A DNA stretch of 22,288 nucleotides, taken from a virus. Location of the stretch: the IMG/VR virus record IMGVR_UViG_3300027861_000212, positions 1 through 22,288 of that record; one strand, 5' to 3'. A program made the translations under genes and the position numbers. The notes below the pieces were generated by a model, which ran no database searches, was not told where the DNA came from, and worked only from the letters and a program-made list of their open reading frames with translations. This document shows positions 2,206 through 22,050 of the stretch, piece by piece; position 1 is the first letter of the stretch; each line of letters starts with the position of its first letter.

Positions 2206-3374
2206 GTAAATCACCCTTATTAGCATCGGATGCTAACCGTTGGGTCGAATGTAATGGGGCGCCGTCACTGGCGCGTCAGTTCCCCGAAATAGTCGACGAA
2301 GACGGTAAACAATCGCGCCTAGATGGTCGAGCGTTCCACGAAGTCGGTCAACGTATTCTCGAATCGTTCCGTGATCCTAACGGTGAATTAGTGTCGAAAC
2401 CTCACATCCTAGGTACGCAGTCCGCCGATGGCGTTGTGATCACGGATGAAATATACGACGCAGCGTTGGTTTATTCGAATGACGTTCTCGCGACGTGTAA
2501 AGGCCCCGTTTCGATGAAAGACTTACACATCGAAGAACGTGTCGAATTGGATTGTATTTATCCAGGTCATTACGGGTTTGTCGACGCGTGGGTGTTTGAC
2601 AAGTCCACTATGACGTTAACAGTGTGGGAAGGTAAATTCGGACATCGATTTGTAGAAGTGTTCGAGAACTGGCAATTGACGCAATACGTAGCAGGTATTC
2701 TCGACACGCTCAACGTGAACGGTTTCATGGACCAGCAAATCACAGTCGTGATGAAAATCGTACAACCTCGTTGTTTTGACGTTCGCGGTACGATACGACA
2801 TTGGACGGTAAAGGCGTCAGATCTACGTGCGCAAATCAACACCGTGATCATGGCGGCGTGGGCGTCAATCGAACCGAACGCCAAATGTAAAACGGGCCCA
2901 CAATGTAACACGTGTGGTTCGCGATACGGATGTACGACATTACAACGCGGTTCGTATGTGGCGATGGAATACGTCCACGAGACAGGTGGTGTGTCATTGA
3001 GCGGTAATAACTTAGCGTTCGAGCTGCGAATGTTGACACGCGCTGAAGAACTTATCAAAGCGCGTAAATCGGGTCTAGAAATGCAAGCGTTGGCCGAAGT
3101 GCGTAGCGGAACGTTGATACCTGGTTACTCTGCCGTTCAAGGTTACGGCAATAAGCGATGGCGCAAAGATACGCCCGTCGATGAAGTTATCGCAATGGGT
3201 GACATGATGGGTCTTGACCTACGTAAACCCGTTACTTTAGACACACCAGCACAAAGTTTGCAAAAAGGTCTTGACGACTCCGTCATTGACGCGTACAGTG
3301 AGACACCAAGAACGAAGATGAAGTTAGTCGAAGATAACGGTTCGAAAGCTCGTCAAGTATTTAAACCACAATAA
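2202..3374 (+). CDS. Cas4-like PD-(D/E)XK nuclease, DUF2800 family
   Basis: The 390-residue protein has the DUF2800 layout: an N-terminal S-x-ANRW-x-EC segment, an active-site region with D128 (GFVDAW) and E143-x-K145 (WEGKFG), then a Q-x-x-x-Y helix (NWQLTQYVAG) typical of RecB/Cas4 nucleases. A cysteine cluster at C229, C235, C238 and C244 resembles the Fe-S or zinc-binding knuckle of this superfamily. Such proteins are thought to act as DNA exonucleases in phage recombination or replication. The gene overlaps the previous stop by four bases (ATGA) and precedes the ssDNA-binding protein and polymerase, the usual DUF2800-DUF2815-polymerase order. Family assignment is from remembered motifs. 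Confidence 0.85.
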   Translation: MSKSPLLASDANRWVECNGAPSLARQFPEIVDEDGKQSRLDGRAFHEVGQRILESFRDPNGELVSKPHILGTQSADGVVITDEIYDAALVYSNDVLATCKGPVSMKDLHIEERVELDCIYPGHYGFVDAWVFDKSTMTLTVWEGKFGHRFVEVFENWQLTQYVAGILDTLNVNGFMDQQITVVMKIVQPRCFDVRGTIRHWTVKASDLRAQINTVIMAAWASIEPNAKCKTGPQCNTCGSRYGCTTLQRGSYVAMEYVHETGGVSLSGNNLAFELRMLTRAEELIKARKSGLEMQALAEVRSGTLIPGYSAVQGYGNKRWRKDTPVDEVIAMGDMMGLDLRKPVTLDTPAQSLQKGLDDSVIDAYSETPRTKMKLVEDNGSKARQVFKPQ

Positions 3375-3387
3375 AAAGGTACACGTT

Positions 3388-3603
3388 ATGTTTAAAAAAA
3401 GTTTAGCAATTGCGTTAATGGGTATGTTCATGCCGTCGCTCGCAGCGACACACGCTATCCGCATGGACGGCGGTCGTTTCGATGACATTAAACCGACAAA
3501 GGGTGAAAAAGGTCAAAAACGTTCGGCACGTCAAAAACCGTCAGGTGCTGCAGTAAATAAACGCGCCGCGACGAAACGTAATAACATTCGTAAACGTAAG
3601 TAA
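3388..3603 (+). CDS. Small exported basic protein, 71 aa
   Basis: The N-terminus looks like a secretion signal: MFKK, a hydrophobic core SLAIALMGMFMP, then a possible signal peptidase I site (S-L-A/A). The mature part is extremely basic (KGEKGQKRSARQK to the C-terminal RKRK) and has no recognisable domain. An AAAAAGG ribosome site precedes the ATG, and the gene lies 13 bases after the nuclease. A periplasm-targeted, Arg/Lys-rich peptide is unexpected between DNA replication genes. It could alternatively be a cytoplasmic DNA- or RNA-binding protein whose hydrophobic start is a membrane anchor. Function unknown. Confidence 0.65.
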   Translation: MFKKSLAIALMGMFMPSLAATHAIRMDGGRFDDIKPTKGEKGQKRSARQKPSGAAVNKRAATKRNNIRKRK

Positions 3604-3625
3604 CATTTAATCATTTAATCAATAA

Positions 3626-3642
3626 GGGCGGCACAGTCGCCC
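3626..3642 (+). promoter_or_regulatory. Hairpin in the leader of the ssDNA-binding protein gene
   Basis: GGGCG (3626-3630) pairs with CGCCC (3638-3642) around a 7-base loop. No T tract follows, so it is not a terminator. It lies about 10 bases before the GGAG ribosome site of the gene at 3661, in a 57-base gap that also has a direct repeat ATTTAATC. It may stabilise the mRNA or tune translation of an abundantly needed protein. Confidence 0.35.
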
Positions 3643-3660
3643 GTAACGGAGCAATAAATT

Positions 3661-4548
3661 ATGTCAGATATTTTAACAACAGTAGGTCGTTTAGTTTCAG
3701 GTCACCCAATGGTAATGCATGCTGCAAACGACAACAAAGGCGTTCAAAAAACGTTTAAAGATGGTTCGTTGATGTTCACTCAATCTGTTGGTATCGCGTT
3801 TGCCAAAGGTGCCGAGACACATTGGAATCAAACACAATGGGGCATGGCGATTTACGCAGCGGCTCAAGCGGCTTTCCCACAAGGTCAACATGGTGCTCCA
3901 ACGTTCGCATGGAAGATCACCGACGGTGACAGTGCCGTTCCGAACAAGAAAGGTAATAAACCATGTGACCGTGAAGGTTACCCAGGTCATTGGGTACTGT
4001 TCGCGACGTCTTGCTTCCCCACACCGACGTATCATGCGGGTCGTTATGCTGCACACGAAGTGATTCAAAACAAAGACGAGATCAAAGCGGGTGATTACGT
4101 TCGTCTATCGTTCAATGTGTCAGGTAACGGTTCAACGGATAGCCCAGGTATGTACATTAACCCCGTCATGCTTGAGCTGACACGTGCTGGTATTCAAATC
4201 ATCAGCGCAAACGCCCCTGACGCATCAGCCGCGTTCGGTGGTTCAGCTGGCGTATTACCACAAGGTGCTATGGTCGACACGAACGTTCAACCCGTTACAC
4301 CTGTTACACCCGTTACCGCAGCGGTCGTCACACCTGTTCAAGCCGCAGTAACAACACCTGTTCAACCTGCTACGGACTTGGTACAACCTCAAACGTTGAC
4401 GCCAGGTGTCGTTACACCACCGCCAGTTATCGCACCACCTGTCGTTGAAGAAAGTTACATCATTGACGGTGTGACACACACCAAAGCGGCGTTGTTAGCG
4501 ATGCCAGGATGGACCGAAGCGCACCTCGCCAATCTAACTAAGGCGTAA
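3661..4548 (+). CDS. Single-stranded DNA-binding protein, DUF2815-like, with Pro-rich tail
   Basis: Residues 1-180 match the DUF2815 phage ssDNA-binding family as I know it: a W-K-x-x-DGD strand, CDREGYPGHW, and the late GDYVRLSF/GMYINPVML strands of an OB-type barrel (compare T7 gp2.5-like proteins). After about residue 205 comes a low-complexity Pro/Thr/Val linker (repeats such as TPVTPV, TPVQ), then a short C-terminal segment YIIDGVTHTKAALLAMPGW. The C-terminus is not the acidic tail of bacterial SSB but could serve the same purpose, recruiting partner proteins. GGAG ribosome site before the ATG. Lies between nuclease and polymerase, as expected of a replication SSB. The family call is an inference from pattern and order. 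Confidence 0.75.
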   Translation: MSDILTTVGRLVSGHPMVMHAANDNKGVQKTFKDGSLMFTQSVGIAFAKGAETHWNQTQWGMAIYAAAQAAFPQGQHGAPTFAWKITDGDSAVPNKKGNKPCDREGYPGHWVLFATSCFPTPTYHAGRYAAHEVIQNKDEIKAGDYVRLSFNVSGNGSTDSPGMYINPVMLELTRAGIQIISANAPDASAAFGGSAGVLPQGAMVDTNVQPVTPVTPVTAAVVTPVQAAVTTPVQPATDLVQPQTLTPGVVTPPPVIAPPVVEESYIIDGVTHTKAALLAMPGWTEAHLANLTKA

Positions 4549-4571
4549 CCGTCACACATTAACCGTTAACG

Positions 4572-4597
4572 CCCCGTCATGTGACGGGGTTTTCGTT
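4572..4597 (+). terminator. Weak rho-independent terminator between SSB and polymerase genes
   Basis: CCCCGTC (4572-4578) pairs with GACGGGG (4583-4589) around an ATGT loop and is followed by TTTTCGTT. The polymerase gene has its own strong GGAGG ribosome site just after it. The site could reduce polymerase expression relative to the SSB rather than end the operon. Confidence 0.6.
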
Positions 4598-4608
4598 GGA
4601 GGACTATT

Positions 4609-6129
4609 ATGATCTATTTAAGAAAGTGTGACGATTTGAACGGGTGTGGTAAAACGTACCCCGGCGACATGTCATACTGTCCGTCATGTGGCGTTGGTCA
4701 CGAGTTTAGCGACGCAGCACCCGTTAACCCCCGCGATTACACGTACGACATCGAAACGTACCCTAACGTGTTTACATGTGCAGTCATTCACATTGCCACC
4801 AATACACGTTGGCGGTTTGAGATCTCCGAATTCCGTAACGACGTTGAAGATCTCGTCGAATTCATCATGTCGTTAAAAGCGTGTCGTGCTCGAATGGTCG
4901 GTTATAACAACGTCGGGTTTGATTATCCGGTGTTACATTTCATCGTAATGAACCCCCATGCTTCACCGCGTGCAATATACGATAAAGCAATGGACATTAT
5001 AAAAGGTGGTGACAAGTTCGGTCACATGATTTGGGATAAGGACCAATTGGTTGAACAGCTCGACCTATACAAGATCCGTCACTTCGACAACATGGCACGC
5101 GCAACTTCGCTCAAGTCTCTTGAAATAGCGATGAAGATGGACAACGTCGAAGATCTCCCGTTCCCCGTTGGAACGACATTGACGCGTGACGAAATCGAAG
5201 TGTTGCACACATACAATGACCACGACGTTGTATCCACTATTTACTTCTACGTGCGCACATTAGCCGAGATTAAATTTCGTGAAGTATTAACCGAACGCTA
5301 CAGTCGAAATTTCATGAATCACAACGATACTAAAATCGGCAAAGATTATTTCATTATGGAACTTGAGCGTAACGGTGTTGAATGTTACGAGAAGATATGC
5401 GGGAAACGTCAACCCCGACAAACAATCCGACCGTCTATTAATCTCGGTGATGTGATCTTCCCTTACGTGAAACTCGAACACCCTGAATTCAGACGCATAC
5501 ACGAGCACCTGGCGAATAAGACAATCACCGAAACAAAAGGGTCGATCAAAGACCTCACGTGTGTTGTTGGCGGATTGAGTTATAAATTCGGAACGGGCGG
5601 TTTACACGCGTCAGATGATTGTAAAATTTTCAGGTCTGACGACGAAATGACAGTTGAAATGCGAGACGTAACGAGTTATTATCCTAGCATGGCAATCGTT
5701 AACCGCATATACCCGAAACATCTTGGTGATAAGTTCTGCGACATATACAAAGACATGTTCGATCAGCGGCGTTCGCACGCCAAAGGTACACCAGAAAACG
5801 CAATGTTAAAGCTCGCGTTAAATGGTACTTACGGCGATTCAAACAATGTGTATTCACCGTTTTATGACCCGTTTTTTTGTATGCAAATCACCCTTAATGG
5901 TCAGTTGTTACTGTGCATGTTGGTTGAACAGTTAATTAAAACACCAGGTTTACGAATGATTAACGTCAACACTGATGGTGTGGGATTCATTTACCCCCGC
6001 AAGCACCGACAACATGTGGACGCGGTATGTCAATGGTGGATGGATTTGACCGCGTTAGGTCTGGAAACTGACGAATATTCGTTGTTTGCACAACGAGATT
6101 GTAATAATTATATAGGTGTTGAAGCATGA
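4609..6129 (+). CDS. Family B DNA polymerase, N-terminal part (exonuclease + palm/fingers); split gene
   Basis: A 506-residue fragment of a family B replicative polymerase. In order: a Cys4 zinc-ribbon-like start (C7, C13, C24, C27); 3'-5' exonuclease motifs Exo I D47-I-E49, Exo II YNNVGFD (99-105) and Exo III Y202-x3-D206; polymerase motif A D353-VTSYYPS; motif B K401-LALNGTYG; motif C NTDG with D456. The thumb and the Lys/Tyr (KRKGAYEY) segment that should follow motif C are missing here; they are encoded by the separate gene at 6862-7467. The stop overlaps the start of a homing endonuclease by four bases (ATGA). Start chosen for the GGAGG site 7 bases upstream. All catalytic residues are in this half, so activity probably needs assembly with the second piece. 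Confidence 0.9.
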   Translation: MIYLRKCDDLNGCGKTYPGDMSYCPSCGVGHEFSDAAPVNPRDYTYDIETYPNVFTCAVIHIATNTRWRFEISEFRNDVEDLVEFIMSLKACRARMVGYNNVGFDYPVLHFIVMNPHASPRAIYDKAMDIIKGGDKFGHMIWDKDQLVEQLDLYKIRHFDNMARATSLKSLEIAMKMDNVEDLPFPVGTTLTRDEIEVLHTYNDHDVVSTIYFYVRTLAEIKFREVLTERYSRNFMNHNDTKIGKDYFIMELERNGVECYEKICGKRQPRQTIRPSINLGDVIFPYVKLEHPEFRRIHEHLANKTITETKGSIKDLTCVVGGLSYKFGTGGLHASDDCKIFRSDDEMTVEMRDVTSYYPSMAIVNRIYPKHLGDKFCDIYKDMFDQRRSHAKGTPENAMLKLALNGTYGDSNNVYSPFYDPFFCMQITLNGQLLLCMLVEQLIKTPGLRMINVNTDGVGFIYPRKHRQHVDAVCQWWMDLTALGLETDEYSLFAQRDCNNYIGVEA

Positions 6130-6875
6130 CGATCGGCATATACGCAATAATCAATAAAATTAATGGCAAATGCTATGTCGGCAAGTCGATAAACATAGAA
6201 CGTCGATTCACGCACCACCGCCATCACCTGAACAAAAAAGACCGATCGGTCAGACAAACAAACCGTCATCTGTTCGACTCGGTGAAGAAGTACGGTATCG
6301 ATTCGTTCAGTTTTGAAATAGTAGAGTCATTCGATGCCATTAACGAATGTCTGATATCCGAACGAGAATTATTTTGGATGGATTTTTTCATGTCGACGTC
6401 TGGCAATGCGGGATACAATCTCCGAAGAGATTCCTCAACGGGAATGATTATACACCCCAGCACACGTAAGATACTGAGTGAAAATAACAAAGGCGTTAAT
6501 AATCCTAATTACGGTAACAAATGGAGTGAAGACAAGAAAAAACGCATGTCAGATTTGAAATCAAAACAACACGTTGACGGTGTTTACGATGACGAATGGA
6601 AATCTAAGATAGGTGTCAAATCCAAAGCGTTTTGGGCTGATAACCCAGATGTCAAATCGAAAATGGCGTCAAAGGTGAGTCAAGCTAAACAAAAGTTCGA
6701 CTTCATTCAAATGGACGACGACTTGAACGTGATTCGAGTATGGCCGTCAATACAATCGATAATTGAATGCAATCCTGATTGGAAATGGCAGAACATATAC
6801 TCTGTCTGTAACGGTTATAAAAAACGAATATACGGGTTCAAATGGAAAAGGGTGTTGAAAAATGTCAAAGATTAA
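6126..6875 (+). CDS. GIY-YIG homing endonuclease inserted in the DNA polymerase gene
   Basis: The 249-residue protein begins with GIY (residues 4-6), YVG (17-19), the conserved Arg around residue 26, and an acidic catalytic candidate (E79/E81 in ISERELFW) at the end of the GIY-YIG domain. A NUMOD3-like motif (NPNYGNKWSEDKKKRM) and a C-terminal NUMOD1-like helix-turn-helix (ending YGFKWKR) provide DNA recognition, the usual layout of free-standing phage homing endonucleases. It overlaps the upstream polymerase fragment by 4 bases and the downstream fragment by 14, so there is no room for a group I intron core. It is in a different frame from the polymerase pieces, so it is not an intein. Its likely target is the uninterrupted polymerase gene of related phages. 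Confidence 0.9.
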   Translation: MTIGIYAIINKINGKCYVGKSINIERRFTHHRHHLNKKDRSVRQTNRHLFDSVKKYGIDSFSFEIVESFDAINECLISERELFWMDFFMSTSGNAGYNLRRDSSTGMIIHPSTRKILSENNKGVNNPNYGNKWSEDKKKRMSDLKSKQHVDGVYDDEWKSKIGVKSKAFWADNPDVKSKMASKVSQAKQKFDFIQMDDDLNVIRVWPSIQSIIECNPDWKWQNIYSVCNGYKKRIYGFKWKRVLKNVKD

Positions 6876-7467
6876 ACGCAAAGGGGCGTACGAATACGAT
6901 TTACAGTGGCACCAAGATCAATCGTCAATGGTGTGTGCACGTGCAGCCGAAGCAGCTCTCGTGCGCGGCGAAGATATCCGTACGTTCATCGAGAATCACG
7001 CGGATGATTACGACTTCATGTGTCGAGCAAAGGCGCCGCGTTCGAATAATATCGTGATGCGTTGGCCCGAGTATGACAACGCCGAAATGCCATTGGCCAA
7101 CATCGTCCGTTATTACGTGTCGAAAGACGGCGGAACGTTGACCAAGATCGCCCCACCAACCGGCGAACCTGGCACATGGAAGCGCGCCGCACGTGTGAGC
7201 GATACGTTATACCAACAAGTGATGGCTGAGATAACTGGAACCAATGACGGGTTTGTCGATGAGGATAGCGCAGGAACGCCACACGACGCCCGTATCCACA
7301 CGAAAAACAAATCGAAGCATACCATACGCGAAATGGGTATTTGTGTCGGCTGGCGTGTAACGGATTGTTCCAACGTGAAGAATTTCGACCGCTCAACGAT
7401 CAATTACGATTATTACGTTGCGGAGGCTGAAAAACTAGTCAAACCACTATTGACGAAAGCGTCATAA
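6862..7467 (+). CDS. Family B DNA polymerase, C-terminal part (thumb); split gene
   Basis: The 201-residue product starts IKRKGAYEYDLQWHQ, the Lys/Tyr element that directly follows motif C in phage family B polymerases. It continues with helices I recognise from the thumb (AAEAALVRGEDI, PRSNNIV, VRYYVSKDGGTLTKI) and ends in IHTKNKSKH to AEAEKLV. It therefore continues the protein that stops at 6129. Both pieces are in the same reading frame of the window, separated by the endonuclease. The start at 6862 lies inside the endonuclease end, with AAGGG about 10 bases upstream, so it is translated as a separate subunit, probably coupled. Compare the split gp43A/gp43B polymerases of some T4-related phages, where the pieces associate. 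Confidence 0.85.
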   Translation: MSKIKRKGAYEYDLQWHQDQSSMVCARAAEAALVRGEDIRTFIENHADDYDFMCRAKAPRSNNIVMRWPEYDNAEMPLANIVRYYVSKDGGTLTKIAPPTGEPGTWKRAARVSDTLYQQVMAEITGTNDGFVDEDSAGTPHDARIHTKNKSKHTIREMGICVGWRVTDCSNVKNFDRSTINYDYYVAEAEKLVKPLLTKAS

Positions 7468-15763: not shown

Positions 15764-16061
15764 CGTCGTACACCCACGTTAACTTGTTAGCTGTTCCCAA
15801 GTTGTCGAGTGTGACCTCATCACCCGTGAAAATGAATCGACCGATATCCGCTTCGAAACCTAATGTCACATCGGTGTTCGGTTCTAACATCGCACCCGCC
15901 ACAAGTTGAACACCTTCGCGCGCGATGTCCATACTCCACGCTGGACCAGCAAGCGTTATGTAATTTAAAGTGAATTGCAATAAGTTGTCGCCGAGCTGCA
16001 TCGTGAATAATTGATGAGCGTTCGCGGCGCCGTTTTGTAACGGTACGTTAGTGATTGTCAT
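15756..16061 (-). CDS. Baseplate plug protein (DUF6983-like), 101 aa
   Basis: A small all-beta protein: N-terminal TITNVPLQNG, then the conserved pattern QFTLNYITLAGPAWSMDIAR, GVQLVAGAMLEPNTD and a C-terminal GRFIFTGDE / LTWVYDDE. This matches the small plug proteins that close the tube at the hub in simple contractile tails. Start overlaps the upstream stop by one base (TAATG). It lies between the Dit-like and hub genes, the order seen in phages with this tail type. Confidence 0.75.
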   Translation of the reverse strand: MTITNVPLQNGAANAHQLFTMQLGDNLLQFTLNYITLAGPAWSMDIAREGVQLVAGAMLEPNTDVTLGFEADIGRFIFTGDEVTLDNLGTANKLTWVYDDE

Positions 16062-16708
16062 TAACCGAGAACCCCCGCTACGTTATTCGATGTTTCAGCC
16101 GATGGAACCGAACCCGTCACTTCACCGTTGTTAACCGTCGCTGACGCTTGACTCTTCGACGGATCACCGTCACGCAATTGTGACGTCGACGGTTGGTTTT
16201 TAGCGAGTACGGTTTCCAATGTGGGGTACTCTTGCATGTCGGCCTCGAATATCAACGCGTTTTCATTTTGCGGATCTTTGGTTCGACGAATGCGACCAAT
16301 AACCATGTTCTTTAATTGAATGTCACCCGCATCGATGTCGAAAGGTTCACCCGTGGTCATCAGCGTGATTAAAAACTCTAATGTAGCGCTCGATCGTGTT
16401 TCGGCACTACCCGCGAGGAAACCTGCAGACAAACCCGCGACCGTTGCTAATATACCAGGATCATCGAAATTACTTGCGGCACCACCTAAGAAATCAGTTA
16501 GACCAATTTTCAACGGGTTGTTACTCACCGCGCCAATCAACGTCCATGTGAAAGGGTTAATGATGCGATGGTCACTGGCACGTGCACCGAGTTCAATCGT
16601 ATAACCTGTCAACGTAACGGACGCTTCGAGCGTATCTTCCAATACCGCGTCGAACTCATAACCGGCAATCGTCGGCGCCTTGCGCGTGAGAATGTTTACT
16701 ATGCTCAC
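16061..16708 (-). CDS. Dit-like tail/baseplate protein, 215 aa
   Basis: The N-terminal 150 residues fit the Dit-like phage tail domain: AGYEFDAVLEDTLEASVTLTG, then DHRIINPFTWTLIGAVSNNPL and the closing FDIDAGDIQLKNMVIGRIRRTKD and LIFEADMQEY strands. The last 50 residues are Ser/Gly/Thr-rich and probably flexible. It starts at a GTG (16708) one base after the tape-measure stop, with GGGGG upstream; the nearby ATG is followed at once by a stop. Dit-like proteins form a ring joining tube and hub. Confidence 0.75.
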   Translation of the reverse strand: MSIVNILTRKAPTIAGYEFDAVLEDTLEASVTLTGYTIELGARASDHRIINPFTWTLIGAVSNNPLKIGLTDFLGGAASNFDDPGILATVAGLSAGFLAGSAETRSSATLEFLITLMTTGEPFDIDAGDIQLKNMVIGRIRRTKDPQNENALIFEADMQEYPTLETVLAKNQPSTSQLRDGDPSKSQASATVNNGEVTGSVPSAETSNNVAGVLG

Positions 16709-16709
16709 A

Positions 16710-17846
16710 TTAACCCCCTGTCGTTGACGCTAAATCGTCAATCGCTGTTTGTGCCATGCCGTCAACGACACGCATTGTTCGTTGGTCGATGACTTGACCA
16801 TCCAACTGAAGTGTGACGTTTATGTCTTGTTGTATGGGTGTGCTGCCACGAGGTAAAAACGTGTTCGACGGAACAACCGTTTGCGATGGGTTATCGAGTC
16901 GTGTCGGTTCACGTTGGTAGATGTTAACGTCGTCACGCAAGTTACCCGAGTTAAAAAAATCGCTCGTTGCGTCGGATGCTGAATCGAACGCGACACCAGG
17001 TAAATCGGTCACCGGCATGAATAACCACTCGGGTAACCCCGTCGCTTTCGAAATATCTTCTGACTCTCCGACACCAAACGTCGCGCCAAACAACGAAGCG
17101 ATTGCGCGTAACGACTCGACGCGATTCTCGTCGAACCAAGAATTAATTTCATCGGTAATGTCTGTTAAGACTGGTAATAATTCGTTACCCATCACATCGA
17201 CAACACTACCGATATTTTGTTTCGTTTCGAGCCACGAGCGATTAAACGCTGCGGAACCTTCTGTCATTTCGTCAGTGATGGGGCGTATTGTTTGAAACTT
17301 TGAAATTGTCGCGTCGACTTCAGATCGACCTTTAGACAACAATCTAATACTTGCCTCGTCCAATCCTAACGCGCTGGCAGCGTTTAATCGTTGTTGTTGC
17401 GTCATTGCTTGGAATTGGTCAGCAAGTGCGAGATACGCTTCGGTGGCTGTCGTAGCTTCGATTAACGGACCAGTATCGATACCCGCTCGACCCGCTACGG
17501 ATATGAAACCCGCGTCACCAACTTGTAAACCAGCGCGGATCCGTTCGATGTTCTCAATCTGTGACATAAACGATTCGAGGTTCCCGCCCTCTTGTGCAAG
17601 TGCGTTACCGAACCCCATGATGTCGTTTGCTGTCAACCCGAATGTTTCGCCGAATTTTCCAAGACTGTCGGTCGCATTGGCGAAATCAGTCGACAACGCT
17701 TTGACACCGAACGCGCCCGCCAGTATCGAACCAGCTTGTAACGCTTTGGACTTGATCGAATCGATACCCGAAGCGGCTTGTCGCGCACCTTTGTTATCGA
17801 ATTGTATTCCTATACCTACTAGGAAATTGGTGATAGTATTAGCCAT
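16710..17846 (-). CDS. Tail tape measure protein, 378 aa
   Basis: The start MANTITNFLVGIGIQFDNKGARQAASGID and the following SIKSKALQAGSILAGAFGVKALS are typical of tape-measure N-termini. A long helical, Ala/Gly/Thr-rich body follows, then a beta C-terminus (QDINVTLQLDGQVIDQRTMR). At about 0.15 nm per residue it would specify a short tail near 55 nm. The upstream region lacks a good ribosome site and lacks the TGATATACT element. A diverged copy of the first 13-14 codons, with that element at normal distance, lies 980 bases away at 18782-18826, beyond a homing endonuclease. The present 5' end is therefore probably a rebuilt one. Confidence 0.8.
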   Translation of the reverse strand: MANTITNFLVGIGIQFDNKGARQAASGIDSIKSKALQAGSILAGAFGVKALSTDFANATDSLGKFGETFGLTANDIMGFGNALAQEGGNLESFMSQIENIERIRAGLQVGDAGFISVAGRAGIDTGPLIEATTATEAYLALADQFQAMTQQQRLNAASALGLDEASIRLLSKGRSEVDATISKFQTIRPITDEMTEGSAAFNRSWLETKQNIGSVVDVMGNELLPVLTDITDEINSWFDENRVESLRAIASLFGATFGVGESEDISKATGLPEWLFMPVTDLPGVAFDSASDATSDFFNSGNLRDDVNIYQREPTRLDNPSQTVVPSNTFLPRGSTPIQQDINVTLQLDGQVIDQRTMRVVDGMAQTAIDDLASTTGG

Positions 17847-17907
17847 ATCGACAACCGTATTTAATGAGTTGTTTAAATATTACCATTTAAAAAAGGTTAA
17901 GGCTAAC

Positions 17908-18783
17908 ATGACAAGAAGACTGACAACTGAAGAATTCATCGAGAGAGCTAAAAGTGCGCACGATGTGGTGTTTGATTACTCTAAATCAGTGTATGTAAGG
18001 AACAACATTAAATTGACGATATCATGTCCGATACACGGCGAGTTCAGTCAAACACCAGGTAACCATGTCAATTTGAAACAGGGGTGTCCAAAATGTGGTG
18101 GTACAGAGAAATTAACGTTAGATGATTTTATTAATAAAGCGAATAGAGTTCATAAGAATAAATTCACATATTGTCAATCAGTGTACGTGAATAACGTGAC
18201 AAAGGTTGAAATACTGTGTCCGAAACACGGTATTTTCACGCAGACACCACGTGACCATTTGTCAGGGTACGGGTGTCCTTCATGTTGTAAAACCACCCGT
18301 TTAACCACCGGTGAGTTTATAAGGAGGGCGATAAATGTTCACGGTGACAGATACAGTTACACTCTGTCAGTTTACAAAAACAAAGACACAAAATTGTCGA
18401 TATGTTGTGACTCACACGGGGTCTTTACGCAGACACCTCACAACCACGTGAGTTTGAAACAAGGTTGTCCTCTATGTTCTAAATCAGGGTTTAAAACCAA
18501 CAAAGAAGGTTTCGTATACATACTCGCGTCGTCATCAGGCGGGGTCATGAAGATAGGTATCACCAACGATGTGAAACAAAGAGTGTCTCAGTTAGGTAAA
18601 ACAACACCTTTCGACTTTAACCTTTTAGATTATTTTTCTGTACCTGGTGACAGCGCTCGACTAATTGAGAACGGTGTACATTCAATTTTAGCGTCGGCTA
18701 ATTTGAGAGGTTTCGACGGGGCGACGGAATGGTTCGAATACGACGGGAAAACGGTTCAAATGATGAGGGACCTTTTCTCTTGA
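17908..18783 (+). CDS. Homing endonuclease: three zinc-ribbon repeats plus GIY-YIG domain, 291 aa
   Basis: Three repeats of about 55 residues each start with F-I-x-x-A and contain C-P-x-H-G-x-F-x-Q-T-P and a later C-P-x-C (C-x2-H / C-x2-C zinc knuckles), resembling the DUF723-type DNA-binding repeat; they end near residue 200. The C-terminal part (GFVYILASSSGGVMKIGIT, R after 8 residues, then ARLIENGVHSILA with a candidate catalytic Glu) is a GIY-YIG nuclease of the T5orf172/MUG113 type. AAGG precedes the ATG. It is transcribed opposite to the late genes, between the tape measure and an orphan copy of its 5' end, so the tape-measure gene is its probable target. The frame is open far upstream, but that part is antisense to the tape measure. 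Confidence 0.85.
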   Translation: MTRRLTTEEFIERAKSAHDVVFDYSKSVYVRNNIKLTISCPIHGEFSQTPGNHVNLKQGCPKCGGTEKLTLDDFINKANRVHKNKFTYCQSVYVNNVTKVEILCPKHGIFTQTPRDHLSGYGCPSCCKTTRLTTGEFIRRAINVHGDRYSYTLSVYKNKDTKLSICCDSHGVFTQTPHNHVSLKQGCPLCSKSGFKTNKEGFVYILASSSGGVMKIGITNDVKQRVSQLGKTTPFDFNLLDYFSVPGDSARLIENGVHSILASANLRGFDGATEWFEYDGKTVQMMRDLFS

Positions 18784-18826
18784 TCGCACCCACGCCGACG
18801 AGGAATTGCGATATAACGTTAGCCAT
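18782..18826 (-). pseudogene. Orphan 5' end of a tape measure gene
   Basis: From the ATG at 18826 the minus strand reads MANVISQFLVGVGA, matching the current tape-measure start MANTITNFLVGIGI at 8-9 of 14 positions with conservative differences. After that the frame runs into the reverse of the endonuclease gene and stops at 18698. A TGATATACT element lies 32 bases upstream, the same distance as before the sheath gene. This is best read as the original tape-measure start, cut off by insertion of the endonuclease. The DNA differs at many third positions from the present start, so it is not a simple recent duplication. Confidence 0.7.
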
Positions 18827-18857
18827 AATCCCACACGTTGAATAAATTGATAACCGT

Positions 18858-18866
18858 AGTATATCA
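18858..18866 (-). promoter_or_regulatory. Candidate late promoter -10 element before the orphan tape-measure start
   Basis: Minus-strand TGATATACT, ending 32 bases before the ATG at 18826. The same nine bases occur before the sheath (33 bases from its ATG) and the spike gene. After the insertion it would transcribe antisense to the endonuclease and then into the current tape measure. Confidence 0.5.
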
Positions 18867-18895
18867 AACAATTTCAATTAATCGTAGATATATAC

Positions 18896-18924
18896 TTGAC
18901 GGTGTTGTCAATATGGACGATAAT
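18896..18924 (+). promoter_or_regulatory. Sigma70-type promoter for the rightward clamp cassette
   Basis: TTGACG (18896-18901), 17-base spacer, GATAAT (18919-18924): 5/6 and 5/6 matches at ideal spacing. Expected start near 18931, 30 bases before the ATG at 18961. This rules out the longer reading of that gene from 18838. Confidence 0.7.
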
Positions 18925-18960
18925 AGCTCTATCGAAACAAAACAAACAACGGAAAACATT

Positions 18961-19116
18961 ATGACTTACGAATACGCTTACACGAACGGCTTTAACATGG
19001 TTAAGTTTGACTTCGAAGGTAACTTTGTAATCGTCGGTGATGATGTCAGTGATTCAGACCTTGCAACAATGGAAAACATGCAAGACGTTGCTGGTTGGGA
19101 AATGAAAGATCTTTAA
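18961..19116 (+). CDS. Unknown acidic protein, 51 aa
   Basis: Starts at ATG 18961 with a GGAAAA site upstream and a good promoter 37 bases before. The protein is acidic (MTYEYAYTNGFNMVKFDF, then IVGDDVSDSDLATMENMQDVAGWEMKDL). No motif is recognised; size and charge resemble many small phage proteins that inhibit or modify host factors, but that is only a comparison. Followed by a terminator. Confidence 0.6.
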   Translation: MTYEYAYTNGFNMVKFDFEGNFVIVGDDVSDSDLATMENMQDVAGWEMKDL

Positions 19117-19125
19117 ATATTAAAC

Positions 19126-19144
19126 GGCCCTTCGGGGCTTTTCT
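19126..19144 (+). terminator. Rho-independent terminator after the 51-aa gene
   Basis: GCCC (19127-19130), TTCG tetraloop, GGGC (19135-19138), then TTTTCTT. Short but GC-rich with the very stable UUCG loop. It may limit read-through to the two following genes, which have their own ribosome sites. Confidence 0.7.
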
Positions 19145-19157
19145 TGGAGTGTTAACT

Positions 19158-19286
19158 ATGAATAGTCACGTAGAATTTTGGGTCGGACTTGCAACAGTCG
19201 CAACGGTGTTTGCTGTGTTGCTTGCTTTCGAAGTGTTAGAACTGCGCGATCAAATCGACGCGCTAACGAATGGGTGTGGGTTATGA
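19158..19286 (+). CDS. Small single-span membrane protein, 42 aa
   Basis: ATG at 19158 has GGAG 9 bases upstream. One hydrophobic segment (FWVGLATVATVFAVLLAF) is followed by a charged ELRDQIDAL helix. The stop overlaps the start of the clamp-like gene (ATGA at 19283-19286), so the two are coupled. Function unknown; a membrane micro-protein coupled to a replication protein is notable. Confidence 0.55.
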   Translation: MNSHVEFWVGLATVATVFAVLLAFEVLELRDQIDALTNGCGL

Positions 19287-19834
19287 TTAAGATTATAAAA
19301 GGTTTGTTGATGGTAGCTGCGAAGAAAGATGTTCGTTATTACCTGAACGGAATACACATCACGTGTGTCGACAGTGTTGTTACGTTATCAGCAAGTGACG
19401 GTTGTATAGGTATGATCCTCGACATCAAAGATGACATGTTCAACGTTGAAGATGGTACAAGCGTGATCTTATGTCGTGAGTCTTTAACCAAAGTTTTAAA
19501 GATGTATAACGCCAAGTCGAAACCATTGTTTACGATCAGCAACGATAACGTTAACATCGATGGTCATAACATTGACATTGTCGACGGTAGATTCCCAGAC
19601 ATTCATCGAGCGTTCAATCTCGGGAAAGGGTCCGCGCCTGATAAAATCAAAGGTATGGATTTTAATATTCTGTCAACGTTGTGTAAGGCTTGTTCTTTGG
19701 TGTTGCATGGTAATGCCGTTCAAGGTGGTTGTTTCGAAATACGTGACGCGAGGTCGCCGTTTCACATTACACAAACGTTCGGTGAGAATGGTGTCAACTC
19801 ACTTCGCGCAGTGATTATGTCGATGCGTCTTTAA
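19283..19834 (+). CDS. Sliding-clamp-like protein (short DnaN-like), 183 aa
   Basis: The segment DVRYYLNGIHI followed by SASDG resembles the ETRYYLNGI / ATDGHRL signature of the second domain of bacterial beta clamps. Later VDGRFPDIHRAF matches the S-x-x-IDG-x-FPDY pattern of the same protein. At 183 residues it would cover only about half to two-thirds of a bacterial clamp, so a different oligomeric state is likely if it forms a ring. It would serve the phage family B polymerase as processivity factor. The start is coupled to the previous stop (ATGA); an internal Met (MVAAKKDVRYY, 19310) is an alternative. Located in the rightward insert between late genes, far from the other replication genes. 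Family call moderate. Confidence 0.6.
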   Translation: MIKIIKGLLMVAAKKDVRYYLNGIHITCVDSVVTLSASDGCIGMILDIKDDMFNVEDGTSVILCRESLTKVLKMYNAKSKPLFTISNDNVNIDGHNIDIVDGRFPDIHRAFNLGKGSAPDKIKGMDFNILSTLCKACSLVLHGNAVQGGCFEIRDARSPFHITQTFGENGVNSLRAVIMSMRL

Positions 19835-19856
19835 CCATCACCACCAACCAATAATA

Positions 19857-19878
19857 ACGCCCCATTACGGGGCGTTTT
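19857..19878. terminator. Bidirectional terminator between clamp-like gene and tail chaperone
   Basis: CGCCCC (19858-19863) pairs with GGGGCG (19869-19874), loop ATTAC, followed by TTTTG on the plus strand and by TTATTATT on the minus strand. It serves the converging rightward cassette and leftward late genes. The stop codon of the frameshifted chaperone (19865-19867) lies inside the hairpin loop. Confidence 0.8.
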
Positions 19879-20433
19879 GTCTAGCTGCTTCACGTGCGTC
19901 GATTAACTCATCCATTGTGATATTAAATCGCATAACGTCCGCGATACTGTACGTCCCATCCTTCAAATCAGACCAATCGCACAACGGCGGGCATAGTTCA
20001 TATATACCCACACATGGCCGCATCATGAACCAATCGACGGCTGGATCGTCATCGACTACTTGTCTCGCGTTGCTTCGTCGGGTTTTACGCTTGCGAGAAA
20101 GGTAAAAAAATCATCGAGATTATACGCGATGGCCTCGGCGACCAATTTGAAATAATCAGTGATTTTACCTTGGAACGAACCGACATCGAGCGTCGTTGAT
20201 TCGCCCGCGATAATTGTTTTGTACAACACGATGCCCGCCACTTCGTCAAACTTCGCTTCGGGTAACACCATCAGCGAACCCATTAATAACGACGTGTCGA
20301 TTGGTTGACCTGACGTTGACGAACGCGCCGCAACGAGTGCACCCACAAGTAACATGAGTTTCTTTTGTTGTAATGCTGGCGCTTGTGCGACGTTATACGT
20401 CACGTTGTTGATAGTAAAGGCCCTTACTGTCAT
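19865..20433 (-). CDS. Tail assembly chaperone, long form made by -1 frameshift, 189 aa
   Basis: Residues 1-110 are shared with the short form. At the T run (20104-20110) a -1 slip continues into YLSRKRKTRRSN, then VDWFMMRPC, DWSDLKDGTYSIADVMRF and a final DELIDAREAAR helix, 79 further residues to TAA at 19865. The extension has coherent codon use and a compact helical C-terminus like other frameshifted chaperone tails. In lambda the equivalent G/GT pair recruits tube subunits to the tape measure. The tape measure gene should be the next leftward gene; here it is displaced 2 kb by the rightward insert. Confidence 0.75.
20056..20433 (-). CDS. Tail assembly chaperone, short form, 125 aa
   Basis: The zero-frame product starts MTVRAFTINNVTYNV, has a helical body (QQKKLMLLVGALVAARS, FDEVAGIVLYKTIIAG, YFKLVAEAIAYNLDDFFTF) and stops at 20056. 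Size, helical content and place right after the tube gene fit the G/gp13-type chaperone that keeps the tape measure soluble and nucleates tube assembly. Two bases separate it from the tube gene. The long form at 19865-20433 uses the same start. Confidence 0.8.
   Translation of the reverse strand: MTVRAFTINNVTYNVAQAPALQQKKLMLLVGALVAARSSTSGQPIDTSLLMGSLMVLPEAKFDEVAGIVLYKTIIAGESTTLDVGSFQGKITDYFKLVAEAIAYNLDDFFTFLASVKPDEATRDK
20104..20110 (-). other. Programmed -1 frameshift slippery site (T TTT TTT)
   Basis: On the minus strand the codons are GAT GAT TTT TTT ACC, so a T-TTT-TTT heptamer is in the phase needed for a simultaneous -1 slip of both tRNAs. The -1 frame stays open for 79 codons after it, while the zero frame ends 15 codons later. 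Confidence 0.8.
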
Positions 20434-20435
20434 TG

Positions 20436-20849
20436 TTAGTTACCACCCTTTAATGCTGTCCAAGTGTTGAATTCCATGATGTATTGGTCATCAGTGATCG
20501 TTGAACCACCTCGACCAACTTGACCGTCGTTAGTCATCACGCCCTCGGTGCCGATGGAGTTTTCCAACGTTCCGATTTGTGTCTTCGACAATGTGATGTT
20601 AGCGCCCGATTCAAATAGACCTTGCAAATACGCGCTGTCAGGTGAACCAGGGTTGATAAACAACGTCACGGTTCGACCAGGGTTGATTCGGTCCAAACGA
20701 ACAGCGTTACCACCTTGACCACGGCGCAACGTCGATTTCGGGTCAATAGGGTCATCGGTGTAAGGTGTTGCTGTTTCACCCCAATCACCAATGATCCGAC
20801 CGTTTACCGTGACCGTGAAGAGGTCTGTTGAAAAATTGTTTAAACTCAT
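20436..20849 (-). CDS. Tail tube protein (DUF3277-like), 137 aa
   Basis: Features: an N-terminal strand DLFTVTVNGRIIGDWGE, then GQGGNAVRLDRINPGRTVTLFINPGSPDSAYLQGL-type region, as in DUF3277 tube proteins (V-x-V-x-G-x-x-I-x-G; G-x-x-G; late serine-rich strand). It would stack as hexamers to form the inner tube. Located directly after the sheath with an AGGGG ribosome site, the canonical sheath-tube order. Confidence 0.85.
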   Translation of the reverse strand: MSLNNFSTDLFTVTVNGRIIGDWGETATPYTDDPIDPKSTLRRGQGGNAVRLDRINPGRTVTLFINPGSPDSAYLQGLFESGANITLSKTQIGTLENSIGTEGVMTNDGQVGRGGSTITDDQYIMEFNTWTALKGGN

Positions 20850-22039: not shown

Positions 22040-22050
22040 AGTATATCACC
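22040..22050 (-). promoter_or_regulatory. Candidate late promoter -10 element before the sheath gene
   Basis: Minus-strand GGTGATATACT, an extended -10, identical over 11 bases to the element at 14119-14129, and 33 bases from the sheath ATG. It sits in the 71-base gap after the upstream late gene. No convincing -35 was found, as is common for extended -10 promoters. Confidence 0.55.

Follow-up and report, generated by a model that had tools for sequence, protein, structure and literature searches.

Freestanding homing endonuclease genes (HEGs) of phages are usually described as located between genes, or inside introns or inteins. Replacement of a gene end is known from the WHO elements of yeasts, which replace a 3′ end, and from the mORFs of fungal mitochondria, which replace carboxy-termini. 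In Torulaspora and Lachancea, the integrating HEG of a WHO element replaces the end of an essential gene, leaving a full-length chimeric gene at one flank and, at the opposite flank, a remnant of the former end (PMC7282813). In the fungal mitochondrial genes atp6, atp9, cox2, and nad3, the endonuclease ORF brings a substitute terminus and the native one is left behind, unexpressed in the case of atp6 and cox2 (PMC3630166).

Among phages, the closest described enzymes are the CapR-like endonucleases with T5orf172 and DUF723 domains (PHROG 681), which are located near tape-measure, terminase, and replication genes; the study describing them covers introns, inteins, and HEG islands, and no duplicated gene ends were found in the passages and terms examined (PMC10448857). 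SegF and SegG of phage T4 are freestanding HEGs that cut a neighbouring essential gene and co-convert its flanks, which results in marker exclusion. They insert between genes, and a term search of the review yielded no mention of duplicated, remnant, or truncated gene ends (PMC2988022). A search of the openly accessible literature, with subscription journals mostly outside its scope, found no earlier report of end replacement by phage HEGs, and the phage version described below appears to be new within the literature searched.

The locus analysed here is part of a 22,288-base stretch of viral DNA (IMG/VR record IMGVR_UViG_3300027861_000212; hereafter the window), whose minus strand carries a contractile tail module of sheath, tube, chaperone, tape measure, hub, and baseplate genes. 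The working tape-measure protein (TMP) gene occupies 16710-17846 on the minus strand and encodes 378 amino acids, beginning MANTITNFLVGIGIQFDNKG. Upstream of it, on the plus strand, lies a freestanding endonuclease gene (17908-18783) encoding 291 amino acids, and beyond this HEG, again on the minus strand, an orphan stub of 14 codons, MANVISQFLVGVGA, is found at 18785-18826. The start at 17846 is similar to the orphan start at 18826 and not the same; the two agree at 9 of 13 amino-acid positions and at 25 of 39 nucleotides. From its ATG the orphan frame continues after MANVISQFLVGVGA into antisense HEG sequence, and its homology to the TMP stops at codon 13-14, at most 4 nt from the HEG stop codon. 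The positions reported for the three features in a preliminary description of this DNA all hold.

As in a WHO element, a full-length target gene and a fragment of its end flank the HEG. The two differ in that the end replaced by WHO is the 3′ end of FBA1 and the encoded protein is intein-derived with a zinc finger, whereas the window has a phage enzyme of the GIY-YIG type and the duplicated end is a 5′ end including leader and start codon. The window HEG is not a member of the WHO protein family, since Pfam gives T5orf172/DUF723 only. By analogy, the locus may be said to work like WHO without being one. The mORFs involve carboxy-termini only, in mitochondria, and mostly LAGLIDADG enzymes; in the window the N-terminus of a phage tail protein is concerned and the HEG is antisense to its gene, so that the locus is not an mORF.

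The endonuclease combines DUF723-like zinc-finger repeats with a C-terminal T5orf172/MUG113 domain of the GIY-YIG type. Pfam matches were obtained for T5orf172 (E 1.8e-11) and MUG113 (E 9.4e-14), with DUF723 above the cut-off, and the match to PHROG 681 reached E 4.3e-75. Three Cys/His repeats, the feature of DUF723-like zinc fingers, are conserved in the HEG alignment. The gene is absent from the TMP start of L002, L008, L042, L035, and others, and is thus polymorphic in presence among relatives. Its domains and this presence/absence pattern identify it as a probable T5orf172/DUF723 phage homing endonuclease (PHROG 681), with cleavage and homing as predicted activities.

The resemblance of the orphan stub to the TMP N-terminus is not a matter of chance. 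The two 14-mers align with a BLOSUM62 score of 48, compared with 33 for the best of 20 dinucleotide-shuffled windows. In other viral loci totalling about 450 kb the best match reached 35, once the window's own TMP and the true TMP relative L091 were set aside. When the flanks of HEGs were swapped as a control for duplicated ends, the probability of the window's score was 0.0012. Chance similarity as the origin of the stub was rejected on these three controls.

TMP relatives lacking the HEG at the TMP start were obtained from IMG/VR scans; a search for TMP relatives in bacterial genomes, as prophages, yielded none. The relatives are distant, the nearest TMPs being approximately 52-57% identical to that of the window. 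HEG-less L002, L008, L014, and L042 share with the window a common layout of chaperone gene, opposite-strand clamp-like gene with a small ORF, promoter, and TMP gene, the last uninterrupted in the relatives. In the window the small ORF and the clamp-like gene, which has a weak Pfam match to DNA_pol3_beta_2, are located upstream of the stub at 19158-19834 on the plus strand. The TMPs of these four relatives start M[AS]NVISS[FL]LVGIGF, like the stub. Furthermore, the stub is preceded at -40 by an extended -10 box, TGATATACT (18858-18866, minus strand), in the native position of a TMP promoter: the seven HEG-less relatives tabulated (L002, L008, L014, L042, L003, L035, and L049) have a TGnTATACT box at -37 to -40 relative to the ATG of their TMP gene. 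Because the HEG-less relatives share the upstream genes, the promoter, and the M[AS]NVISS start with an uninterrupted TMP, the stub is most simply read as the natural 5′ end of the resident TMP gene, still behind its own promoter. The comparison with endonuclease-less relatives proposed in the preliminary description gave the expected result, with an uninterrupted TMP, an orphan-type start, and an orphan-type promoter at the orphan's position; the suggested entry of the endonuclease at about codon 14 is likewise supported, by the end of homology at codon 13-14 and by similar end duplications at other loci of the family. As a separate observation, the clamp-like module sits within the tail operon in antisense orientation, in the interval from the chaperone gene to the TMP gene, and is absent from L035.

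The element of the stub, TGATATACT, also precedes the sheath gene (22040-22048). The sequence TGNTATACT occurs four times in the window (13194, 14119, 18858, and 22040), in each case on the minus strand, where 0.3 occurrences would be expected, and is probably a promoter motif of the structural genes. It had been claimed that the orphan and not the current TMP copy carries the element at the distance seen before the sheath gene. The element is indeed at -40 of the orphan and before the sheath gene alike, but the current copy is not without one: its leader (17847-17907, minus strand) contains a degraded promoter-like TGGTAATAT at 17885-17877, that is, at -39. A minus-strand search from 18826 to 17846 found no terminator-like site, and read-through from the stub promoter, antisense to the HEG, could therefore also feed the TMP gene. 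The working copy could be driven by the box in its own leader and/or by such read-through. If active, the stub promoter would also yield RNA antisense to the HEG and a hybrid peptide of at least 42 amino acids (18700-18866, minus strand); the antisense RNA could limit late expression of the endonuclease.

The start of the working TMP appears to come from a different source. Its first codons, MANTITNFLVGIG, match the allele MANTITNFLVGVG of L035 and L058 at 11-12 of 14 positions, with L051 and L053 similar, and do not resemble a decayed version of the stub; they are of a different natural allele type, MANTITNF as in L035. Because the working start belongs to this other natural allele, the substitute start was most likely brought in. 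The preliminary description had left it as either brought or regenerated; the former is probable and the latter unlikely. It had also named, as evidence against its reading, endonuclease-less relatives whose TMP begins exactly as the current copy and which lack an orphan start. L035 and L058, with their MANTITNF start, come near to this; since both start alleles occur naturally, such relatives do not discriminate between the readings.

Beyond its first codons, the TMP is suggestive of a chimera. Codons 1-190 are closest to L035 (70.5%) and codons 200-378 to L002/L008 (41-43%). In an AU test the 5′ part rejected kinship with L002/L003/L042 (p 0.00035), and a breakpoint near codon 195 had a permutation p of 0.012, with L035 itself mixed in its TMP affinity. 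Because of this mixed affinity of L035, the breakpoint may predate the HEG event. Searches for relatives found no donor phage with this HEG beside a MANTITNF-type TMP, and the roles of resident and donor are provisionally assigned from the start type and the upstream genes.

To see how far the arrangement recurs, HEGs of the same family were collected from IMG/VR and their two flanks compared by translated same-strand matches, with swapped flanks as control. With short flanks, a duplicated gene end flanks the HEG at 9 of 194 loci at a score of at least 44, compared with 1.0 expected, and at 6 loci at a score of at least 48, compared with 0.29; the count of nine takes in the window and the candidate L157 (score 49), and the p-values are somewhat optimistic, since flank lengths and score cut-offs varied between survey runs and the shortest flanks were chosen after one copy had been seen to abut the HEG. 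With longer flanks, fixed beforehand, 10 loci scored at least 48 against 2.2 expected, and two of these (L201 and L223) were set aside. One copy of the duplicated end generally abuts the HEG stop codon.

A second 5′-end case is the NAPRTase gene of L174, in which a stub, MKQIVTHFTDNDFYKYW, stands before the HEG and the working gene, beginning MKQIVTKFTDNDLYTFT, overlaps the HEG end; on the upstream side of this stub, the DNA can be aligned with that of HEG-less L317 and L318 as far as the point where their intact gene begins. The other cases concern 3′ ends: of TerL in L261 and in L122/L167 (one contig), of PhoH in L142 and L173, of a helicase in L030, of a protein without known family in L101, and, more weakly (score 41), of a sigma factor in L200. 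In L261 both ends encode an identical KRASLGDML* by different codons, and in HEG-less L311 TerL runs directly into what is, as judged by eye, seemingly the same next gene. End duplication is not unique to the window; relatives of its HEG have the same arrangement at about eight further viral loci, mostly at the 3′ end of the target gene. All positive cases are IMG/VR contigs and represent a minority of the family's loci. In isolate phages a search placed this HEG at 1,721 sites; no convincing end duplication was seen at about 20 HEG loci of isolate phages of Vibrio, Salmonella, Klebsiella, Shewanella, and E. coli.

L119, L201, and L223 were not counted as duplicated target-gene ends, the repeat resembling the HEG leader or another nuclease-like gene. 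L119 shows apparent tandem HEGs (2504-5092), and in L201 (1431-3144) and L223 duplicated ends of genes that look nuclease-like by eye lie beside the HEGs.

From the observed anatomy, the relatives with an empty site, the difference between the start alleles, and the repetition at further HEG loci, we consider it probable that this is an end-replacing homing locus, in which the HEG entered the TMP gene near codon 14, at the 5′ end, and brought along a substitute start that came from a phage carrying a different TMP allele. The endonuclease would cut the resident TMP start on an unoccupied allele. The break would be repaired from a donor carrying a TMP start fragment, the HEG, and a full TMP gene in this order, so that the HEG is copied along with the donor's adjoining gene end. 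Because the replaced end in the window is a 5′ end, the transfer had to include leader and start codon, and the substitute would comprise the leader, the ATG, and at least the first codons of the TMP. The resident promoter and first 14 codons would be stranded beyond the HEG as the orphan stub, and the resident TMP body would be joined to the donor 5′ part, which would keep the essential gene intact. The altered TMP sequence should no longer be a target of the HEG, and the stranded recipient end may later serve as homology, as in the model for WHO elements (PMC7282813).

Ordinary phage mosaicism could also account for the locus: two phages might have exchanged DNA without any drive from the HEG, so that the old TMP start was left behind a segment of foreign DNA in which HEG and TMP lay together by coincidence. 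Mosaicism is a feature of phage tail genes, TMP affinities are mixed in several relatives, and cleavage by the endonuclease is a predicted activity; yet the HEG stop codon is where the stub ends, and unrelated phages repeat this geometry at unrelated genes, always around this HEG family, which an exchange of that kind does not predict. We therefore regard mosaicism as unlikely. It is more doubtful still that the stub is a fossil of an earlier host, carried along with an HEG that inserted just upstream of an undisturbed MANTITNF-type resident TMP, even though L035-type TMPs with that start exist without the HEG and pieces of genes from earlier hosts are present in some WHO10 insertions (PMC7282813). 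The stub stands in a native setting: as in phages of the MANVIS type, it has a promoter at -40 and is preceded by the clamp-like module, which L035 does not have. The L174 stub, moreover, sits exactly where its HEG-less relatives have an intact start.

Two starts on one strand might also reflect a tandem TMP duplication, after which the first copy decayed and the HEG inserted. No relative examined has a tandem TMP, nothing is left of the first copy past codon 14, and the two starts are different natural alleles, which makes this origin highly improbable. An intron, with the HEG inside it and the stub as exon 1 spliced to the TMP, has a precedent in ICP1, where an interrupted TMP is spliced around an HEG (PMC10448857). 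That the HEG is antisense to the TMP, that the gene downstream comes with a complete start and a leader of its own, and that no Rfam family matches in 16000-20500 leave splicing with hardly any likelihood.

If the end-replacing reading is right, a substitute gene end is another way for an essential gene to tolerate HEG insertion and a possible mechanism for mosaicism inside essential phage genes. The stub is predicted to mark the cut site and the new end to be resistant, TerL, PhoH, and TMP ends are predicted to be exchanged between phages, and stubs would make old homing sites readable from sequence alone. The chances seem to us evenly divided on a broader proposal, namely that T5orf172/DUF723 endonucleases form a general phage class travelling with a recoded, cleavage-resistant 5′ or 3′ end of an essential gene, each homing event swapping the end and leaving a stub. 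Such a class would be an independently arisen prokaryotic counterpart of WHO, and it would drive the mosaicism of tape-measure, terminase, and PhoH genes.

Other endonuclease genes were seen in the course of this work. HEGs of the same family lie between tube and chaperone genes in L091 (1127-2011) and right behind a structural gene about 5 kb upstream of the TMP in L012 (230-1114), with no end duplication seen at either. A second, different endonuclease of the window (GIY-YIG with NUMOD3, 6126-6875) splits its DNA polymerase gene in two (4609-7467, plus strand). The cuts and the ends of this HEG overlap, with no substitute end noticed at this place; compared with PHROG 1252, the N-terminal part of the polymerase matches up to position 507 and the C-terminal part from position 512.
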